In this document: piece by piece, positions 2,391 through 36,252 of the stretch | Numbering within the stretch: position 1 is the first letter of the stretch | How the letters are laid out: each line of letters begins with the position of its first letter | From: a virus | Virus record (IMG/VR): IMGVR_UViG_3300034820_000014 | Coordinates: 1-39,420 of that record | Strand: one strand, 5' to 3' | DNA: 39,420 bases | Program-made: the position numbers and the translations under genes | The notes under the pieces: model-generated | The model's database searches: none | Told to the model about the DNA's origin: nothing | The model's input: the letters and a program-made list of their open reading frames with translations, nothing else

Positions 2391-4216
2391 TATTGCGCTC
2401 CTAGTAATTGTTGTGTATCTGTTCCAGCACCGCCAGCCCGCTCCATAACAAACTGGAATTGATTACGCAAAGTGTTAATCTTTTGTTTAACCGTCTCTGG
2501 CGAATCGGCGGCCTGAGGTACATACTTGTCAAACATATTTTGTTCTTCCTTAGTAATAGCCGCGCCAGTACGCAAACGGGCAATGACATCTTTAACTTGA
2601 TCACGTGCGTTTTCATATTGCCCCGTGCCCAAAGCCGCGCCAGTTATACCAAATGGGTTAAATGACCCGCTTACGCCCTGTTTGCTTTGTAACGATGGAT
2701 CTTCTGCCAACTGTTTCTCAATCAAATCAAGATTGTCAAGACCGACTTTCGCGTTGCTGAGAACCTTAGCTGACTCTGAACTAAGTGGTTTGGTAGTTTT
2801 AGAAGACTCTCCGAACGCTTTATATCCGTTCAAAATTGCACCAGCCGCTTCTTTATCGCCAGCCGCGAGTGCACGGTTATATGCCCTCTCAACAGCCTGC
2901 GGATCAGCATACACAGATGTGGGCTGGCCAGTAGTATCCTCGTTCGGATTAGGCAAAATACCCGTATCTGTTGGTAAGGTGTCCGCTGGCTGTACTTCTT
3001 CGGCTGGAGCGAGAAGCGCGTTACCGGTACTCTGGGCGATTGTTTGGCCTATTCCTTTACGCAATAACTGGCTGGGTCGGAAAGCGGAGGTGAGCGCCCC
3101 TTGGTCTATCTTTTGGCCACCACCAGTTATCTGCTTCATAATATCGGCACCTTTACTAACTGTTCCCGGTACAGACTGCTGCCCCACTGGAACACCAAAG
3201 ACATTGAAACCCTTAGCATTTTTTGCGCCTTTTGAGGTCAGATCAAGCAGCCCCTTTGCTTGCATGTAGTCACCTTTAAGAGCCTTGTACTCTGGCGAGA
3301 GTGGAGTGATAAATGAGTCTATCGCGTCACGAACTTCATTTGCTTGAGCGGCGGCCGATGTCTTTTTCGCGCCTGTAGAGGTAAAGGCAAGGTCGTCCGC
3401 TTCACGACGGATAGATTCTAAGTCCTTTAATGTACGAGCCTTGCCCACTTTCTCGACAAGTTTATTAGCCGTAGAAGTACCTCTGGTAATAGCGGCATTC
3501 TCCCCGATGCGGTTACGGATGTCCTCAGCAATTCCATTGATTTCATTGGACACCACTGGCCTGTCAATCTTGTTAAGCGTTTCATCAAGCTGACCCGTTT
3601 TAGTCTTAAATAGTTCTTGTGCCTGCCGTGCTTGTTCCACAGGCGCACCCGCTTTTACTCCGTTTGAACGACCAAAGTTATATAATTCATCGGCCGCATC
3701 TGGCGTTAGCACTTTCCCACGTACTGTTTGACCGATTTCGAGACCCGATTGCTTCATGTCGGCGTTGCGTGCGCCTTGGTTTAGCTTCTCGGTAAACGTA
3801 GAGGGGCGTACAACTCCAGCCGTATCTTTCGCGATATTAGCTGCCTTGAACCCCCCTCCTATACTTTCTCCGGCTTTTAATGCTTTACCCGCACCCACAA
3901 CGCCCTTAAGAAGCTTTCCAGCCCCAGGAAGTGCCCCAAATGCAGCTTCCTGTGCAATATTTCCAATATTTAGATCCTCACCAAGCAAGTTTTGTTTAAT
4001 GGCCTCCCCTATCCCTGCCCCAGCAGCACCTCCGGCAGCAGTTCCTGCAACTGGCGCCGCAAACGAACCACCAATCGCACCAAGCGTACCTCCCACAAGT
4101 GGGGCTGCGTTTGCGATAAATTCTTGCAAACCACCAACTTTCTTCTTCTTTGGTGCGTATTGTGACCGTGTGTCCAGGGGTTGATAATTAGCTTGTAAAG
4201 CAGCCCAATCAGTCAT
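2390..4216 (-). CDS. internal virion / DNA-ejection-type protein, 608 aa
   Basis: Residues about 30-110 carry repeated Gly/Ala segments (GGTLGAIGGSFAAPVAG, AAGGAAGAGIGEAI) of glycine-zipper type that could enter membranes. They are followed by long predicted helices and a Gln-rich C-terminus. Large helical proteins with Gly-rich membrane segments beside the tail genes of short-tailed phages are usually ejected with the DNA. The gene directly follows 4217-5080 (adjacent stop and start) and precedes the small basic protein. The assignment rests on composition and position, not on a recognised domain. Confidence 0.6.
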   Translation of the reverse strand: MTDWAALQANYQPLDTRSQYAPKKKKVGGLQEFIANAAPLVGGTLGAIGGSFAAPVAGTAAGGAAGAGIGEAIKQNLLGEDLNIGNIAQEAAFGALPGAGKLLKGVVGAGKALKAGESIGGGFKAANIAKDTAGVVRPSTFTEKLNQGARNADMKQSGLEIGQTVRGKVLTPDAADELYNFGRSNGVKAGAPVEQARQAQELFKTKTGQLDETLNKIDRPVVSNEINGIAEDIRNRIGENAAITRGTSTANKLVEKVGKARTLKDLESIRREADDLAFTSTGAKKTSAAAQANEVRDAIDSFITPLSPEYKALKGDYMQAKGLLDLTSKGAKNAKGFNVFGVPVGQQSVPGTVSKGADIMKQITGGGQKIDQGALTSAFRPSQLLRKGIGQTIAQSTGNALLAPAEEVQPADTLPTDTGILPNPNEDTTGQPTSVYADPQAVERAYNRALAAGDKEAAGAILNGYKAFGESSKTTKPLSSESAKVLSNAKVGLDNLDLIEKQLAEDPSLQSKQGVSGSFNPFGITGAALGTGQYENARDQVKDVIARLRTGAAITKEEQNMFDKYVPQAADSPETVKQKINTLRNQFQFVMERAGGAGTDTQQLLGAQ

Positions 4217-5080: not shown

Positions 5081-5148
5081 TAAAAATTCCCCATAAAATT
5101 GGGGAAATCCGCTTCTTGGATTATATCATCTCTCTATAGGGTATCAAA
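5081..5148 (-). promoter_or_regulatory. late leader E1: promoter plus terminator-like hairpin
   Basis: On the minus strand: -35 TTTGAT (5143-5148), 17-base spacer, -10 TATAAT (5120-5125). Then come AAGCGGATTTCCCC, a small loop, GGGGAA, a U5 run and the ATG of 4217-5080. The hairpin plus U-run resembles an intrinsic terminator placed directly after the promoter. Its 3' arm is also the only Shine-Dalgarno-like sequence, so folding could block transcription, translation or both. The motif recurs at 11.55, 14.8 and 19.16 kb. Confidence 0.7.
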
Positions 5149-6764: not shown

Positions 6765-7198
6765 TATATAATCCCATCAGCCACATCAAACCCAGGTGCG
6801 GCGATTGCCCATCCACCGGTACCATCTGGTAAGATACCAATCTGCATAAAGTTCTTCCCAGAATCCGGATCGTAAGAGTAGAACGTGCCATTCACAATCT
6901 TCATAATGATATTTCCCGCCGTGTCTAAAGAAAAAAACCCATACTCACCATTTACACTGTTGGGGATTGCTCCCATACCAATAAGGCTTCCGTCTGGAGC
7001 GGCGATTGTAATAGTATTATTAGTCCCATCAATCTTTGTAGTACCATAACCAACGGTCTGGGTTCCTCTCGTGGAACCAGTAGAAAGCTGTCGGGGGAGG
7101 ACACGCCCGATATTATCCTGTCCGATTTCTTTATTAGAAACATACGCGGGCTTTGCCTGCCCATAGGTTGAGTCTGTCTGTCCGTATATATCTTTCAC
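6764..7198 (-). CDS. putative fibre-tip protein, 144 aa
   Basis: A polar Tyr/Gln-rich N-terminus (YGQTDSTYGQAKPAY) precedes a beta-rich domain with 'ITIAAPDGSLIGMG' and 'GFFSLDTAGNIIMKI', the pattern of short beta-repeats in fibre tips. Start and stop overlap both neighbours by one base. Function is inferred from the cluster. Confidence 0.5.
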   Translation of the reverse strand: MKDIYGQTDSTYGQAKPAYVSNKEIGQDNIGRVLPRQLSTGSTRGTQTVGYGTTKIDGTNNTITIAAPDGSLIGMGAIPNSVNGEYGFFSLDTAGNIIMKIVNGTFYSYDPDSGKNFMQIGILPDGTGGWAIAAPGFDVADGII

Positions 7199-11544: not shown

Positions 11545-11595
11545 GGAATAGAAAAACCCCCAAATAAATTGGGGAAATCCGCTTTTATTAGTATA
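11545..11595 (-). promoter_or_regulatory. late leader E2: promoter plus terminator-like hairpin
   Basis: -10 TATACT lies at 11590-11595, followed on the minus strand by AAAAGCGGATTTCCCCAA, loop, TTTGGGGG and a U5 run. It is the same architecture as E1, E3 and E4. Here a separate ribosome site (AGGGAG) lies after the U-run. Confidence 0.65.
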
Positions 11596-11598
11596 TCA

Positions 11599-13066: not shown

Positions 13067-14784
13067 CAAGCCTCGTCATAATAGGCGACACTCCAATGAA
13101 CAGTCTGTGCGCCGCTTAAGTTTAAATTCAAAAGCGTCGCAGAAGCGGTAGAGAATATATAGCTAGGGACGGCGACAGCTAAGTTAGCGCCCACATTAGC
13201 ACCGGTTGGGGCTTGTAATACAACTCTCCATAGTTCAGTACCGCTCGCGCCTGACTGGAATATACACGTAACGGCTGTAGTGGAAGTAGTCGTAAGAGAG
13301 AAAGCGTAAACTTTGAGCTTGTTCGTACCCGCTGCCACAAGAGTGTTGTTACCTGAGGAGCTTGCAGACCCGCCAGCAGAAGCTAAAGTACGTCCTGCAC
13401 CATTGGCGTCTACAACACGCTGTACACCAGCTCCAACAGCTCCCACACCCGTGGAAACTGCAGTCCCCGCAATGCTAGTTGTATCAGCTTGCAAAGCGTT
13501 ACCGGCAGTGATGTTCACTCCCCGTTCGTTACCGGCTGCGTCGCGGATAGTGTTATATAAGTTCCTGTTCGCAGACATGCGGAGGGTGCCCCAGTTGTTT
13601 TCAGTAATAGAAGTTGGGGAGGTATCGTCAAATACGGCGGCCATACCCGCGCCAAGCACGCCAGATGAGGTATTGGAGGTTGAACTGAGGCCACGAGCAC
13701 CGGTGAGGTTACCTGTAGCAAGGTCGTTTATACCCAAATAGAACGCATTCGCCGGAACTGCTGATCCTGTAGCCGAGTTAGAGCCCACTGTCCAGGTACC
13801 AGATTGTAGGGCTGTCATCCCTAATGATGGAAGTGCCCAATTTGAAGCTGAGAATATAATCTGCCCAGAGGTAGTACCGGCAGATATGCCTGTTACGTTT
13901 AATCTAAAATAGCGAGCACTTGTACTACCTACGAATATACCGGTACCGCCAACAGTAGTAGCCCCAGCAATATTAGAAAACCCCTCCTGTATCATAACTA
14001 CGGGGAACCAGTTTGAGTTATCGTTAGATGCCTGGAATACTACAGATGAATTTGTTCCCTGCGCATTAATCTGGACGGACACAGAACTATAATTACTTAC
14101 GTCCGTAGACGCCACAGACTGAACGGTAGTAGTAGTGAATGATACACTCTTGCGTGTTGGCGCTGTTAATACTGCGTTCTGCCCTGAGTCTCCAGCAATC
14201 GTATTTGCAATTTGCGTGCCATCGGTAATCTTTGTCTGCGCAGTACCTCCCGTGAGTGTGGCGTCCAGCGCCAGACCATTAGTCGTACCAATATTGGCTG
14301 TCACTGTCCCACTGACTGGTTGGGTTACTGCAGACCCATCAACCTTTAGTGCGTTCGTAAGTTGGGGCTGGTCAGTTGCTAAAACAAATCTCTGCGTTCC
14401 AGCCGACTTGTTCCCAGAGTTAGTATCAATCGCCGTCCCACCAAGCTTGGTAGTGTTGTTATTGAGAGTTCCGTCAGAATCCCCCTTGGCAGACTGTATA
14501 AGAGTCCCGTCGTCCACCATCGCAAGGGTACCAGTAGCTGTACCGCGTGCAGCACCATCTGCGTATTGAGTCCCGCCACCAAACGAAGTAATCTGGTTTC
14601 CTGACCCATCTACAATAGCTACCCCAACAGCCGTTGTCGCTCCCGCGATAGGCAGGGCTGACCCACCGATGGTAGCGGAGCTGTTTAACACGTGGTTGGT
14701 ACTGGTTAGGTACTCAGCAGACTGGGTTATGGTACTACGTGCGTATAATATTTCTCGTTGATTAGGTGAAATGTCTTTTGACAT
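13066..14784 (-). CDS. large Ser/Thr/Gly-rich fibre or surface protein, 572 aa
   Basis: The protein is beta-rich with low-complexity repeats of Thr, Ser, Gly and Ala. The C-terminal domain ends in AVTCIFQSGASGTELWR... and VHWSVAYYDEA, resembling small phage surface domains. The start at 14784 has GAGGGA seven bases upstream; a longer TTG start would remove that site. It is the first gene after leader E3 and is coupled to the LamG-type gene. Confidence 0.6.
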   Translation of the reverse strand: MSKDISPNQREILYARSTITQSAEYLTSTNHVLNSSATIGGSALPIAGATTAVGVAIVDGSGNQITSFGGGTQYADGAARGTATGTLAMVDDGTLIQSAKGDSDGTLNNNTTKLGGTAIDTNSGNKSAGTQRFVLATDQPQLTNALKVDGSAVTQPVSGTVTANIGTTNGLALDATLTGGTAQTKITDGTQIANTIAGDSGQNAVLTAPTRKSVSFTTTTVQSVASTDVSNYSSVSVQINAQGTNSSVVFQASNDNSNWFPVVMIQEGFSNIAGATTVGGTGIFVGSTSARYFRLNVTGISAGTTSGQIIFSASNWALPSLGMTALQSGTWTVGSNSATGSAVPANAFYLGINDLATGNLTGARGLSSTSNTSSGVLGAGMAAVFDDTSPTSITENNWGTLRMSANRNLYNTIRDAAGNERGVNITAGNALQADTTSIAGTAVSTGVGAVGAGVQRVVDANGAGRTLASAGGSASSSGNNTLVAAGTNKLKVYAFSLTTTSTTAVTCIFQSGASGTELWRVVLQAPTGANVGANLAVAVPSYIFSTASATLLNLNLSGAQTVHWSVAYYDEA

Positions 14785-14786
14785 TA

Positions 14787-14826
14787 AAAAATCCCTCAAT
14801 TGGGGAATTCCGCTTCCTACAGTATA
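14787..14826 (-). promoter_or_regulatory. late leader E3: promoter plus SD-sequestering hairpin
   Basis: -10 TATACT at 14821-14826 directly abuts the TAG stop of the upstream gene. AAGCGGAATTCCCC follows, then CAATTGA and GGGA with a U6 run into the ATG. The 3' arm of the hairpin contains the ribosome site GAGGGA, so folding would hide it. Confidence 0.65.
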
Positions 14827-15615
14827 CTACATCTCTAGCAAAGCCGCATTCTGCTTAATAGAGGCCTCCTGTTGCGTGACCTTTATCTCCCTCACGCGAA
14901 GTACTTTATCTTTATCATCTAGCGAACGCGCCCGTACGGCAATGTTCTCACGCTCAACCTTCATTTGGTCGGTGAACTGATTGTATTCTTCCCGTGCTGT
15001 AGATGCCCTCAATAAGATAGTATTCAGATCTCGCTCAGCTGTTTCCTTTTTCGAGGCTATTTCGATTTCTAATTCACCTATCTGCTCCACAAGATCTTCT
15101 CTTTTGTCAATCAATAAACCAATCGACTCTTCCAACGATCTTTTGCTGTCTTCAAGGGGAAGGATAGACCCCTTAAGCGTGCCGATTTGTTCACTGAGGC
15201 CAACAATGACACCCCGCTTCCTAGCGGTGGTGTCATTAAGGTCACTAAGCCTTGCGGTAAATTCATCAATCTGTGTCTGGAGAGTTAGAGCGTCGCTCTT
15301 CAATAGTTCGATCTCGTCAAAAGTATCCCGTTTTTTACCTTGTAAAGACTCTACTCCCCCAATGAGTACCTTCTTAGTGCTTTCTAACCCTAGAATCTCT
15401 TTTTTCAACGGATCCAACCTACTACTAAGCTCATTCTCACGTTCTGTGAGTAAAATGGCCGTTTCAGCATCAATTTTAGACTGTAGCTGCTGCTGCTCGA
15501 GTGCTGTCTGCTTTAGGTCGGCTTGGGCTACGCTTAACCGCGTCTCCGCCGTTTCCACTTCCTTCAGCAAATCCTGCAGTTGGCTCAGCAGCTCGGAGTT
15601 CGGGGAATGCTTCAT
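14827..15615 (-). CDS. long coiled-coil protein, 262 aa
   Basis: Nearly the whole chain is heptad-patterned coiled coil (for example SELLSQLQDLLKEVETAE, REDLVEQIGELEIEIASKK), with no membrane segment. It overlaps the upstream gene by 140 bases in another frame, and only a weak ribosome site precedes the ATG. The heptad pattern begins right at this start, which supports a separate protein rather than a fusion. Possibly a virion scaffold, ruler or internal protein. Confidence 0.7.
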   Translation of the reverse strand: MKHSPNSELLSQLQDLLKEVETAETRLSVAQADLKQTALEQQQLQSKIDAETAILLTERENELSSRLDPLKKEILGLESTKKVLIGGVESLQGKKRDTFDEIELLKSDALTLQTQIDEFTARLSDLNDTTARKRGVIVGLSEQIGTLKGSILPLEDSKRSLEESIGLLIDKREDLVEQIGELEIEIASKKETAERDLNTILLRASTAREEYNQFTDQMKVERENIAVRARSLDDKDKVLRVREIKVTQQEASIKQNAALLEM

Positions 15616-19146: not shown

Positions 19147-19214
19147 AAAAATCCCCAACATTTGTTGGGGAAATCCGCTTCCTACATTTTGTACTAGCTA
19201 AAGTAAAAAGTCAA
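19147..19214 (-). promoter_or_regulatory. late leader E4 of the major capsid gene
   Basis: -35 TTGACT (19209-19214), 17-base spacer, -10 CAAAAT (19186-19191). It is followed by GTAGGAAGCGGATTTCCCC and a perfect 8-bp hairpin (CCCCAACA/TGTTGGGG, 19153-19170) with a U5 run. The ribosome site is about 35 bases further on, so here the hairpin acts on transcription rather than by covering the start. Confidence 0.7.
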
Positions 19215-34717: not shown

Positions 34718-34933
34718 TTACTTCTTTGGCCAGACGGCCTTAACGTAGCTAGTAATCATTGGGGTAAGCCCAAAGATCAGACATAGTACCGCTAAGACCG
34801 CACAGACTGTCTTCAAGTCACTGTGGGTAAGGTTAAGGGTGCTTGCGTACCCAGCGCTTAAACCTACAAGCGTTAAGAGAAGTCGTTCGCCAATTGTTAA
34901 TATTGCTTTAATCGTTGTTTTAAAATTCTTCAT
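34718..34933 (-). CDS. two-helix membrane protein, holin-like, 71 aa
   Basis: Two membrane helices (LTIGERLLLTLVGLSAGYA and TVCAVLAVLCLIFGLTPMI) with basic ends (MKNFKTT, WPKK). ATG at 34933 has AAAAGGAA upstream; a longer reading into the RNA region is unlikely. The gene follows the transglycosylase and the large RNA, so a holin is the natural guess. Confidence 0.65.
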   Translation of the reverse strand: MKNFKTTIKAILTIGERLLLTLVGLSAGYASTLNLTHSDLKTVCAVLAVLCLIFGLTPMITSYVKAVWPKK

Positions 34934-34949
34934 ATTTTTTCCTTTTATT

Positions 34950-35462
34950 TTGATCTTTGATCGGCTGGTCAGGTTCCGGTGGCAAGATGCAGCACATGAG
35001 TCCTGCTTAGCCTTGTCCACCGAACCTGAAGCTGGCAACAAGTAGGGCTGACGAAACCCCAACGACGTTTACGCTGTCAATCCTACGCTGAGTCTCTGTC
35101 ACTATTGGGTTTCGTGTAGACAGAGCGACGATGCAACCCAATTAGTTCGTCCATAGATTCGAGTCTTGCTGCCAGCATTAAGCCAGCCAATCGTGATAGT
35201 AGGTATGGTGCTAGTAGCAAGGGTTGGCTTTGCCATATTTTTGATAATCGACATGATTTACCTTTTTAGGGGTTTCAACGTCTACATAGGTTTTCGCCTA
35301 TGTTCAGGCACGAATTACTTACATGCCTCACGCCCTGACTACCAGCACTACTACCTACTATCTTGATAGTGAGCATGAGCTCCACCTGGATCCCCGCGAA
35401 TAGCCGACGCTTGTAGACGCCATGGTCTGTGATACTTAGGGCTATTCCTACAAGTGGGGCTG
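34950..35462 (-). ncRNA. large structured RNA candidate, about 510 nt
   Basis: This long gap has no convincing gene but many helices (minus strand). A 23-position long-range helix joins 35339-35362 and 35195-35217 (one bulge, one mismatch, one G-U). The 5' domain has CCCC+GAATAGCC/GGCTATTC+GGGG with CTTGTAG/CTACAAG interleaved as a pseudoknot. Hairpins ACATAGG/CCTATGT and AGGCATG/CGTGCCT lie inside. CTCTGTC/GACAGAG (35094-35125) has a loop that pairs with 35051-35062. A 60-nt hairpin (34969-35029) ends it. A -10-like GATAAT lies just upstream. Size, phage context and nearby tRNA recall GOLLD/ROOL-type RNAs, but I cannot assign a family. Confidence 0.65.
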
Positions 35463-35476
35463 CTGCTCATTATCGT

Positions 35477-35998
35477 TCACCACCATCTGTTAGCGAGCCA
35501 GAAACTATAAGCTTGCGCCCAACTTCCGTACCTACTAACAGCGTATGAATCACACCATCGTAATTGCGTTACGGGGTTCGTTTGCCAGTCCGCTCCGGCC
35601 GTAGCCATTTTGGAAGCAGGTAATGCCTGACAAAGGCCAGTAGCACCCGATGGATTATGCGCTGTGACGTTCCAGGAGCTCTCGTGAGCCACGATATACT
35701 CAGCATATGAGTAATCACTTGACTTGATGCCCGCAGACGCCATGAGCGCGCTGTGATCGCTTAGTGGCTGCGACATTACTGCCGCCTTTTGCTCCACAGC
35801 AAGTGCTAATTCCTGTTGTGGCTGAGGTAACATGTCGGCCTTTATGGGCTGGATTATTTCTGTTACCTGTTTGTTAATGTTCGCTTCTGGTAAAGGTGTT
35901 TCAACCTTTGGCACCATCCCCAGTACAACTAGGGTGATTGCCAGTAGCGCACTTGGGATGTTTATAGACACTCCTCGTTTACGCTTTGTCGAGACCAC
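35477..35998 (-). CDS. anchored lytic transglycosylase (SLT-like), 173 aa
   Basis: It cleaves peptidoglycan. A basic start (KRKRG) and a membrane helix at residues 12-29 anchor it outside the cell. A linker of about 65 residues follows. The C-terminal domain has YIVAHESSWN with the catalytic Glu (E106), GATGLCQALP and RYGSWAQAYSFW, the pattern of small SLT/aggregation-factor-type domains. The start is GTG. It is either the phage lysin or a host wall enzyme at the border. Confidence 0.8.
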   Translation of the reverse strand: MVSTKRKRGVSINIPSALLAITLVVLGMVPKVETPLPEANINKQVTEIIQPIKADMLPQPQQELALAVEQKAAVMSQPLSDHSALMASAGIKSSDYSYAEYIVAHESSWNVTAHNPSGATGLCQALPASKMATAGADWQTNPVTQLRWCDSYAVSRYGSWAQAYSFWLANRWW

Positions 35999-36175: not shown

Positions 36176-36252
36176 TGGTGGGCGATGAGGGATTCGAACC
36201 CCCGACCCTCTCGGTGTAAACGAGATGCTCTAGCCAGCTGAGCTAATCGCCC
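36176..36252 (-). tRNA. tRNA-Val (anticodon UAC)
   Basis: The cloverleaf is complete: GGGCGAT/ATCGCCC acceptor stem, GCTC...GAGC D-arm, CTCGT/ACGAG-type anticodon arm with loop TTTACAC giving UAC, GGGTTCGAATCCC T-arm, and encoded ACCA at the 3' end. The 3' end points toward the phage, so it may be the integration site. Confidence 0.95.

Follow-up and report, generated by a model that had tools for sequence, protein, structure and literature searches.

New large structured RNAs are rare. GOLLD and ROOL are among those of phages, and to our knowledge their function is not known. In animals, the lower stem of Y RNAs is formed by GCUGGU/ACUAGC and includes a G-U pair, and the bacterial YrlA RNAs combine a tRNA-like part with a long closing stem and a variable interior. 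For GOLLD it was described that the linker sometimes carries tRNAs (PMC12286853). The clamp RNA analyzed here is similar to GOLLD and ROOL in being a large multi-domain non-coding phage RNA with highly variable parts, but its unit is a recurring clamp helix enclosing an insert that is hypervariable and can be exchanged; this unit is sometimes solitary and sometimes arranged in tandem. In contrast to GOLLD, it has tRNA-Leu-like modules and not full tRNAs.

The window, i.e. the whole analyzed stretch of 39,420 nucleotides (IMG/VR record IMGVR_UViG_3300034820_000014), and 32 related loci were subjected to cmscan with Rfam 15, GOLLD, ROOL and OLE included, and no match at the gathering threshold was obtained. 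With the GOLLD and ROOL covariance models nothing was detected up to E=5 in the region, nor up to E=1 in nine related loci, and at relaxed thresholds no family overlapped the region; the sole find in the related material was an unrelated twister ribozyme. Since no Rfam model matched the window or its relatives at gathering level, the identity with GOLLD or ROOL that had been considered for this locus is not supported. In the literature searched no paper describing the clamp RNA was found; PMC8040213, a large study on structured RNA candidates of human microbiomes, could contain it as a numbered candidate. We read the clamp RNA as a structured RNA of phages that forms a new, modular class.

In the window, the structured intergenic region spans positions 34934-35476 and its RNA reads on the minus strand from 35476 to 34934, the natural limits of the structure being 35476-34959. 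Folding of the 543 nt of the minus strand yielded -215.3 kcal/mol (z -9.6), about 60 below the shuffled sequences, none of which (0/100) matched the native stability. The same 543 nt of the plus strand yielded -203.5 kcal/mol (z -7.6), so the strongest folding was on the minus strand, where the neighbouring genes are also encoded. When the genome was scanned in 500-nt segments every 1 kb, z scores mostly stayed within about +/-3 and the structured region reached about -10; the stretch of the tRNA-Val was the only comparable outlier (about -5). On both strands the region is far more structured than expected by chance, no shuffle being as stable, which confirms the original observation of unusually dense structure. 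Its central helix of 23 positions (35339-35362 with 35195-35217) was recovered exactly, and the tRNA placed at a distance of 0.7 kb is the tRNA-Val at 36176-36252, the sole find of ARAGORN and Rfam.

Upstream, the region is flanked by a lysin gene on the minus strand (35477-35998; transglycosylase with SLT domain, PF01464 4e-5, phrog_12661 2.4e-23). Downstream lies a small holin-like ORF (34718-34933, minus strand), which has the ribosome-binding site AAAGGA, starts about 26 nt after the RNA and gave no family match. Protein coding by the region itself was considered for a 50-aa ORF with a ribosome-binding site (35254-35102). It was rejected, as this ORF matches no family and runs across the conserved helix, which is kept in contexts where the ORF is lacking.

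Other features of the window were recorded alongside. An element of 47 nt is present in four copies (5082-5128, 11552-11598, 14783-14829 and 19148-19194), at least two of which immediately precede structural genes of the minus strand. It contains a TATAAT-like box, CCGCTT/AAGCGG and a hairpin with a GGGGAA ribosome-binding site, and looks like a repeated late promoter with a structured leader. At the left end, an ORF at 10-1440 encodes a divergent GroEL-type chaperonin (PF00118); a GroES/GroEL-like pair is also encoded by phage contig L010. In the relative L004, a tRNA 3'-end-like sequence (3281-3317) beside an integrase matches the tRNA-Val of the window by 84%, and this tRNA gene possibly marks an attachment site where a provirus has its border.

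The RNA comprises three domains, all on the minus strand. A 5' hairpin domain of about 110 nt (35365-35474) was visible in the MFE as well as the centroid structure, and a long hairpin is found directly 5' of the clamp in other members too. It is followed by the clamp module (35194-35363), which is supported by covariation in 40 elements and scored 77.4 bits with the covariance model R1; R1 had been built from 26 sequences, one of them the window itself. The clamp consists of an outer stem (35363-35352/35205-35194), an internal loop of GUA (35351-35349) opposite CA (35207-35206), a core (35348-35334/35222-35208) and a hypervariable insert (35223-35333), recognized as such by the lack of similarity and motifs among inserts and by comparison of flanks and inserts in relatives. 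With outer stem, GUA/CA internal loop, a core of the GUGCUGGUAG type with its G-U pair and a variable insert, positions 35194-35363 correspond to the full definition of the clamp. The third, multi-branched domain (34959-35192) was delimited by its fold and by sequence comparison with tRNA-Leu-like modules. According to the fold it is closed by an outer stem (35192-35183/34968-34959) and harbors a second clamp-like helix (ATGCTGGCAGCAAG at 35178-35165, partner 35042-35030) and a terminal hairpin (35029-34970). A T-arm-like segment is present in this domain, and it appears to resemble the tRNA-Leu-like modules of relatives; its membership among them is tentative because the D-arm is divergent and not conserved.

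Relatives identified via the lysin and the recombinase-like (SSAP) neighbour were mostly too distant and mostly phages without the element. A search with the major capsid protein yielded 23 contigs at 70-86% identity, and DNA comparison revealed two short colinear matches, which are the arms of the helix, in G036, G037, G040 and G028. When the two arms were used one at a time to scan the viral collection, 68 and 57 contigs were obtained; in about 30 of these both arms were located 45-250 nt apart together with a base-paired outer stem. Altogether, the clamp element was found in about 40 phage contigs. The syntenic L004/G001 carry other hairpins at the same place (z -3.1) and lack the clamp. 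An exact 18-mer search returned one chance match (L013), and BLAST of a short clamp against phage and plasmid records gave nothing significant.

From the 5' end, the consensus clamp consists of a variable outer stem (10-12 bp) that ends in UA or CA, the internal loop with GUA on the 5' and CA on the 3' side, a core 5'-GUGCUGGUAGUAA / UUGCUACUAGCAC-3' of 13-15 bp with one conserved G-U pair, and the insert. In the alignment of 40 elements (A2), 91.2% of the cells were paired and 20 of 27 pairs had changed on both sides. Double changes filled 132 cells, counted as sequences and not as independent events, compared with 39.6 in shuffled alignments and 11-19 when the pairing was slid (12-19 for shifts of 1-3 columns). 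The sequence conservation of the core stems partly from selection, since most members came from exact arm matches; the search patterns imposed no such selection on the outer stem, and double changes in the core were also present in divergent copies (the second copy of L186, L174, L223 and L232). The conserved G-U pair was found in 37 of 40 elements and a U-G pair in 29 of 40, and on the opposite strand these positions become C-A mismatches. Since these pairs hold on one strand only, the clamp is an RNA of that strand. The R1 scores were about 50-88 bits in sense and mostly 20-46 bits in antisense orientation. The clamp is thus a covarying, strand-specific helix at the RNA level that recurs in other phages. 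Missing covariation, or homologues coding for protein, had been named as findings that would speak against a structured RNA. Because the key helix covaries strongly in related phages, the original prediction of a large structured RNA with several domains, which may belong to a new class, is supported.

R1 also detected copies outside the set used for searching and building, namely L343 and L344 among 393 small genomes (E about 1e-16; the genomes listed measure 0.5-1.7 Mb), and L187, L170 and L233, which had likewise been used for neither. As control, 792 kb of loci carrying one arm by chance gave isolated matches only. Together with L299, L343 and L344 are small genomes of one class that carry the element; for the capsid protein of the window no relative was found among the 393 genomes of the small-genome class. 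At L343:1210-1790, a clamp in a small bacterial genome has a 22-bp hairpin directly before it and another long stem after it; it lies upstream of phage-like genes and is a compact relative of the arrangement in the window. The number of clamps per locus varies. Tandem clamps occur in L225 and a second clamp in L223, L186 and G028, and in L236, L182 and L258 an apparently single clamp of 84-120 nt lies between genes.

The insert ranges from about 26 to 224 nt. Inserts shared no k-mers above the shuffled expectation, and pairwise similarity was found for none except L212/L259. On average their structure equalled that of shuffles, the insert of the window being among the more structured ones (z -2.6), and no conserved sensor or expression platform was found in them. 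In L183, L186 and L208 the upstream flanks are 95-96% identical and the inserts unrelated; conversely, the inserts of L212 and L259 are 91% identical in unrelated flanks. Near-identical flanks with unrelated inserts, together with the same clamp and insert in unrelated flanks, indicate that parts are exchanged and do not drift. These sequence comparisons show that the insert is not under constraint and that inserts as well as whole elements have been exchanged. The content of the clamp also varies in kind: a tRNA-Leu-like body sits inside the clamp stem in L219, L275 and L361. Two inserts (L279:7665-7932 and L299:1598-1879) each hold a complete small gene of 64 aa with its own ribosome-binding site, the two being unrelated. 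L183, L186 and L208 have a long conserved noncoding region of about 1.5-2 kb around the clamp, with several clamp and tRNA-like modules one after another; L208 has two copies of the entire region, separated by a transposase-like ORF.

The tRNA-Leu-like body consists of a D-arm UGGCGGAAUAGGUAGACGC, a T-arm GCAGGG...CCCUGC, whose loop often accommodates an inserted hairpin, and an acceptor-like stem, which showed double changes in 8 of 8 pairs. It was found beside the clamp or within it in L183, L208, L219, L231 (where the D-arm is not recognizable), L233, L237, L240, L275 and L361, and without a recognized clamp in about 35 other contigs. A tRNA-Leu-like module is a recurring companion of the clamp. 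A widespread tRNA-Leu-like RNA was also observed in L345-L384 (e.g. L350:5263-5450, L363:10279-10459 and L369:5334-5470), often just upstream of a start codon and with a variable, sometimes pseudoknot-like interior. Its T loop contains an inserted hairpin, and covariation was seen in every pair of its acceptor stem. It had no Rfam match and probably constitutes a second new RNA class. The phage contig L369, which also carries a tRNA-like module, harbors a type-P5 twister ribozyme at 6887-6940.

How these observations are best explained is evenly balanced between one reading and all others together. This reading is that of a modular minus-strand structured RNA between the lysin and the holin-like gene, in which the clamp serves as a recognized handle and the insert is merely carried. 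The RNA would be transcribed together with the neighbouring genes, often those of lysis, and its working part would be the clamp with the conserved core and the GUA/CA internal loop. Recognition of the clamp by a protein or nuclease would make it a handle, or a processing or stability unit between genes; we infer that the helix probably is such a handle. The insert would only be carried along and swapped by recombination through the conserved arms, e.g. by the recombinase of the phage. Against this reading, downstream genes differ among members and 26 of 43 clamps lack a start with ribosome-binding site within 120 nt, so that a role between cistrons alone leaves part of the members unexplained.

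The main rival is a large ornate RNA acting in trans like those of the GOLLD/ROOL kind, which would be free-standing and abundant and would assemble with itself, ribosomes or tRNAs, the clamps forming the arms of the particle. Several members are multi-domain RNAs of about 0.5-1.3 kb with conserved noncoding flanks, the downstream genes are varied, and the tRNA-like modules inside or beside clamps recall the tRNAs of the GOLLD linker (PMC12286853). The GOLLD, ROOL and OLE models were, however, unmatched, and L236, L182 and L258 look like a single short clamp, and we consider this explanation possible at a clearly lower level than the handle.

A cis-acting leader is less likely. It would act on the following gene, here the holin-like one, at the level of translation or stability, e.g. 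by sequestering the start or blocking an exonuclease. The clamp elements are placed between genes, and several adjoin a small membrane protein and a lysin, others lying elsewhere. A start with ribosome-binding site was found within 60 nt after the clamp in 16 of 43 cases (37%), about three times the rate at random positions (11%), which is consistent with a leader, as is the 26 nt distance in the window. The downstream gene is not conserved among members, though, and neither is a sensor or expression platform in the insert, and for 13 of 43 clamps no such start follows within 400 nt. We consider the leader an improbable account of the class.

A mobile or recombination cassette acting at the DNA level, with transposon-end-like or attC-like inverted repeats that pair as DNA, is very improbable. 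With attC sites the element shares a long imperfect hairpin, a variable end and the exchange of content, and whole-element transfer to unrelated flanks, replacement of inserts in near-identical flanks, and the presence of small genes (L279, L299) or of a tRNA-Leu-like body (L219) as inserts would suit such a cassette. Against it, strand-specific conserved G-U pairs and the covarying outer stem fit an RNA, a transposase or integrase was not consistently adjacent in the loci that were read, and the attC R boxes (RYYYAAC ... GTTRRRY) were absent by inspection at the hairpin ends, which are variable in the clamp and commonly AATTAAGCG/CGCTTAAT. A relative of bacterial Y RNAs, with an Ro/Rsr-binding stem and a tRNA-like module, is strongly disfavoured and close to negligible: GCUGGU/ACUAGC with a G-U pair in the core of the clamp may correspond to the animal Y RNA stem, and YrlA has its tRNA-like part, but the internal loop is different, no Rfam Y RNA matched, and the Ro/TROVE protein (PF05731) was found in 0 of 36 phage records carrying the element or module and in 0 of 195 genomes of the class carrying L299 (class of G042), the positive control having worked.

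For the phages, a further and more tentative suggestion than the handle is that the clamp scaffold represents a general RNA cassette system and not a fixed regulator, which displays hypervariable, actively exchanged inserts. If this is true, unstructured RNA, tRNA-Leu-like bodies and even small genes would be swapped between phages as inserts. It is unusual that a conserved frame holds inserts which are hypervariable and swapped, and the class combines very strong covariation with a defining helix compact enough for tests by simple mutation. Besides phages, the class is present in small-genome bacteria, and together with the tRNA-Leu-like modules these bacteria provide concrete starting points for experiments, namely RNase P, RNase Z, RNase III, the ribosome and tRNA synthetase.
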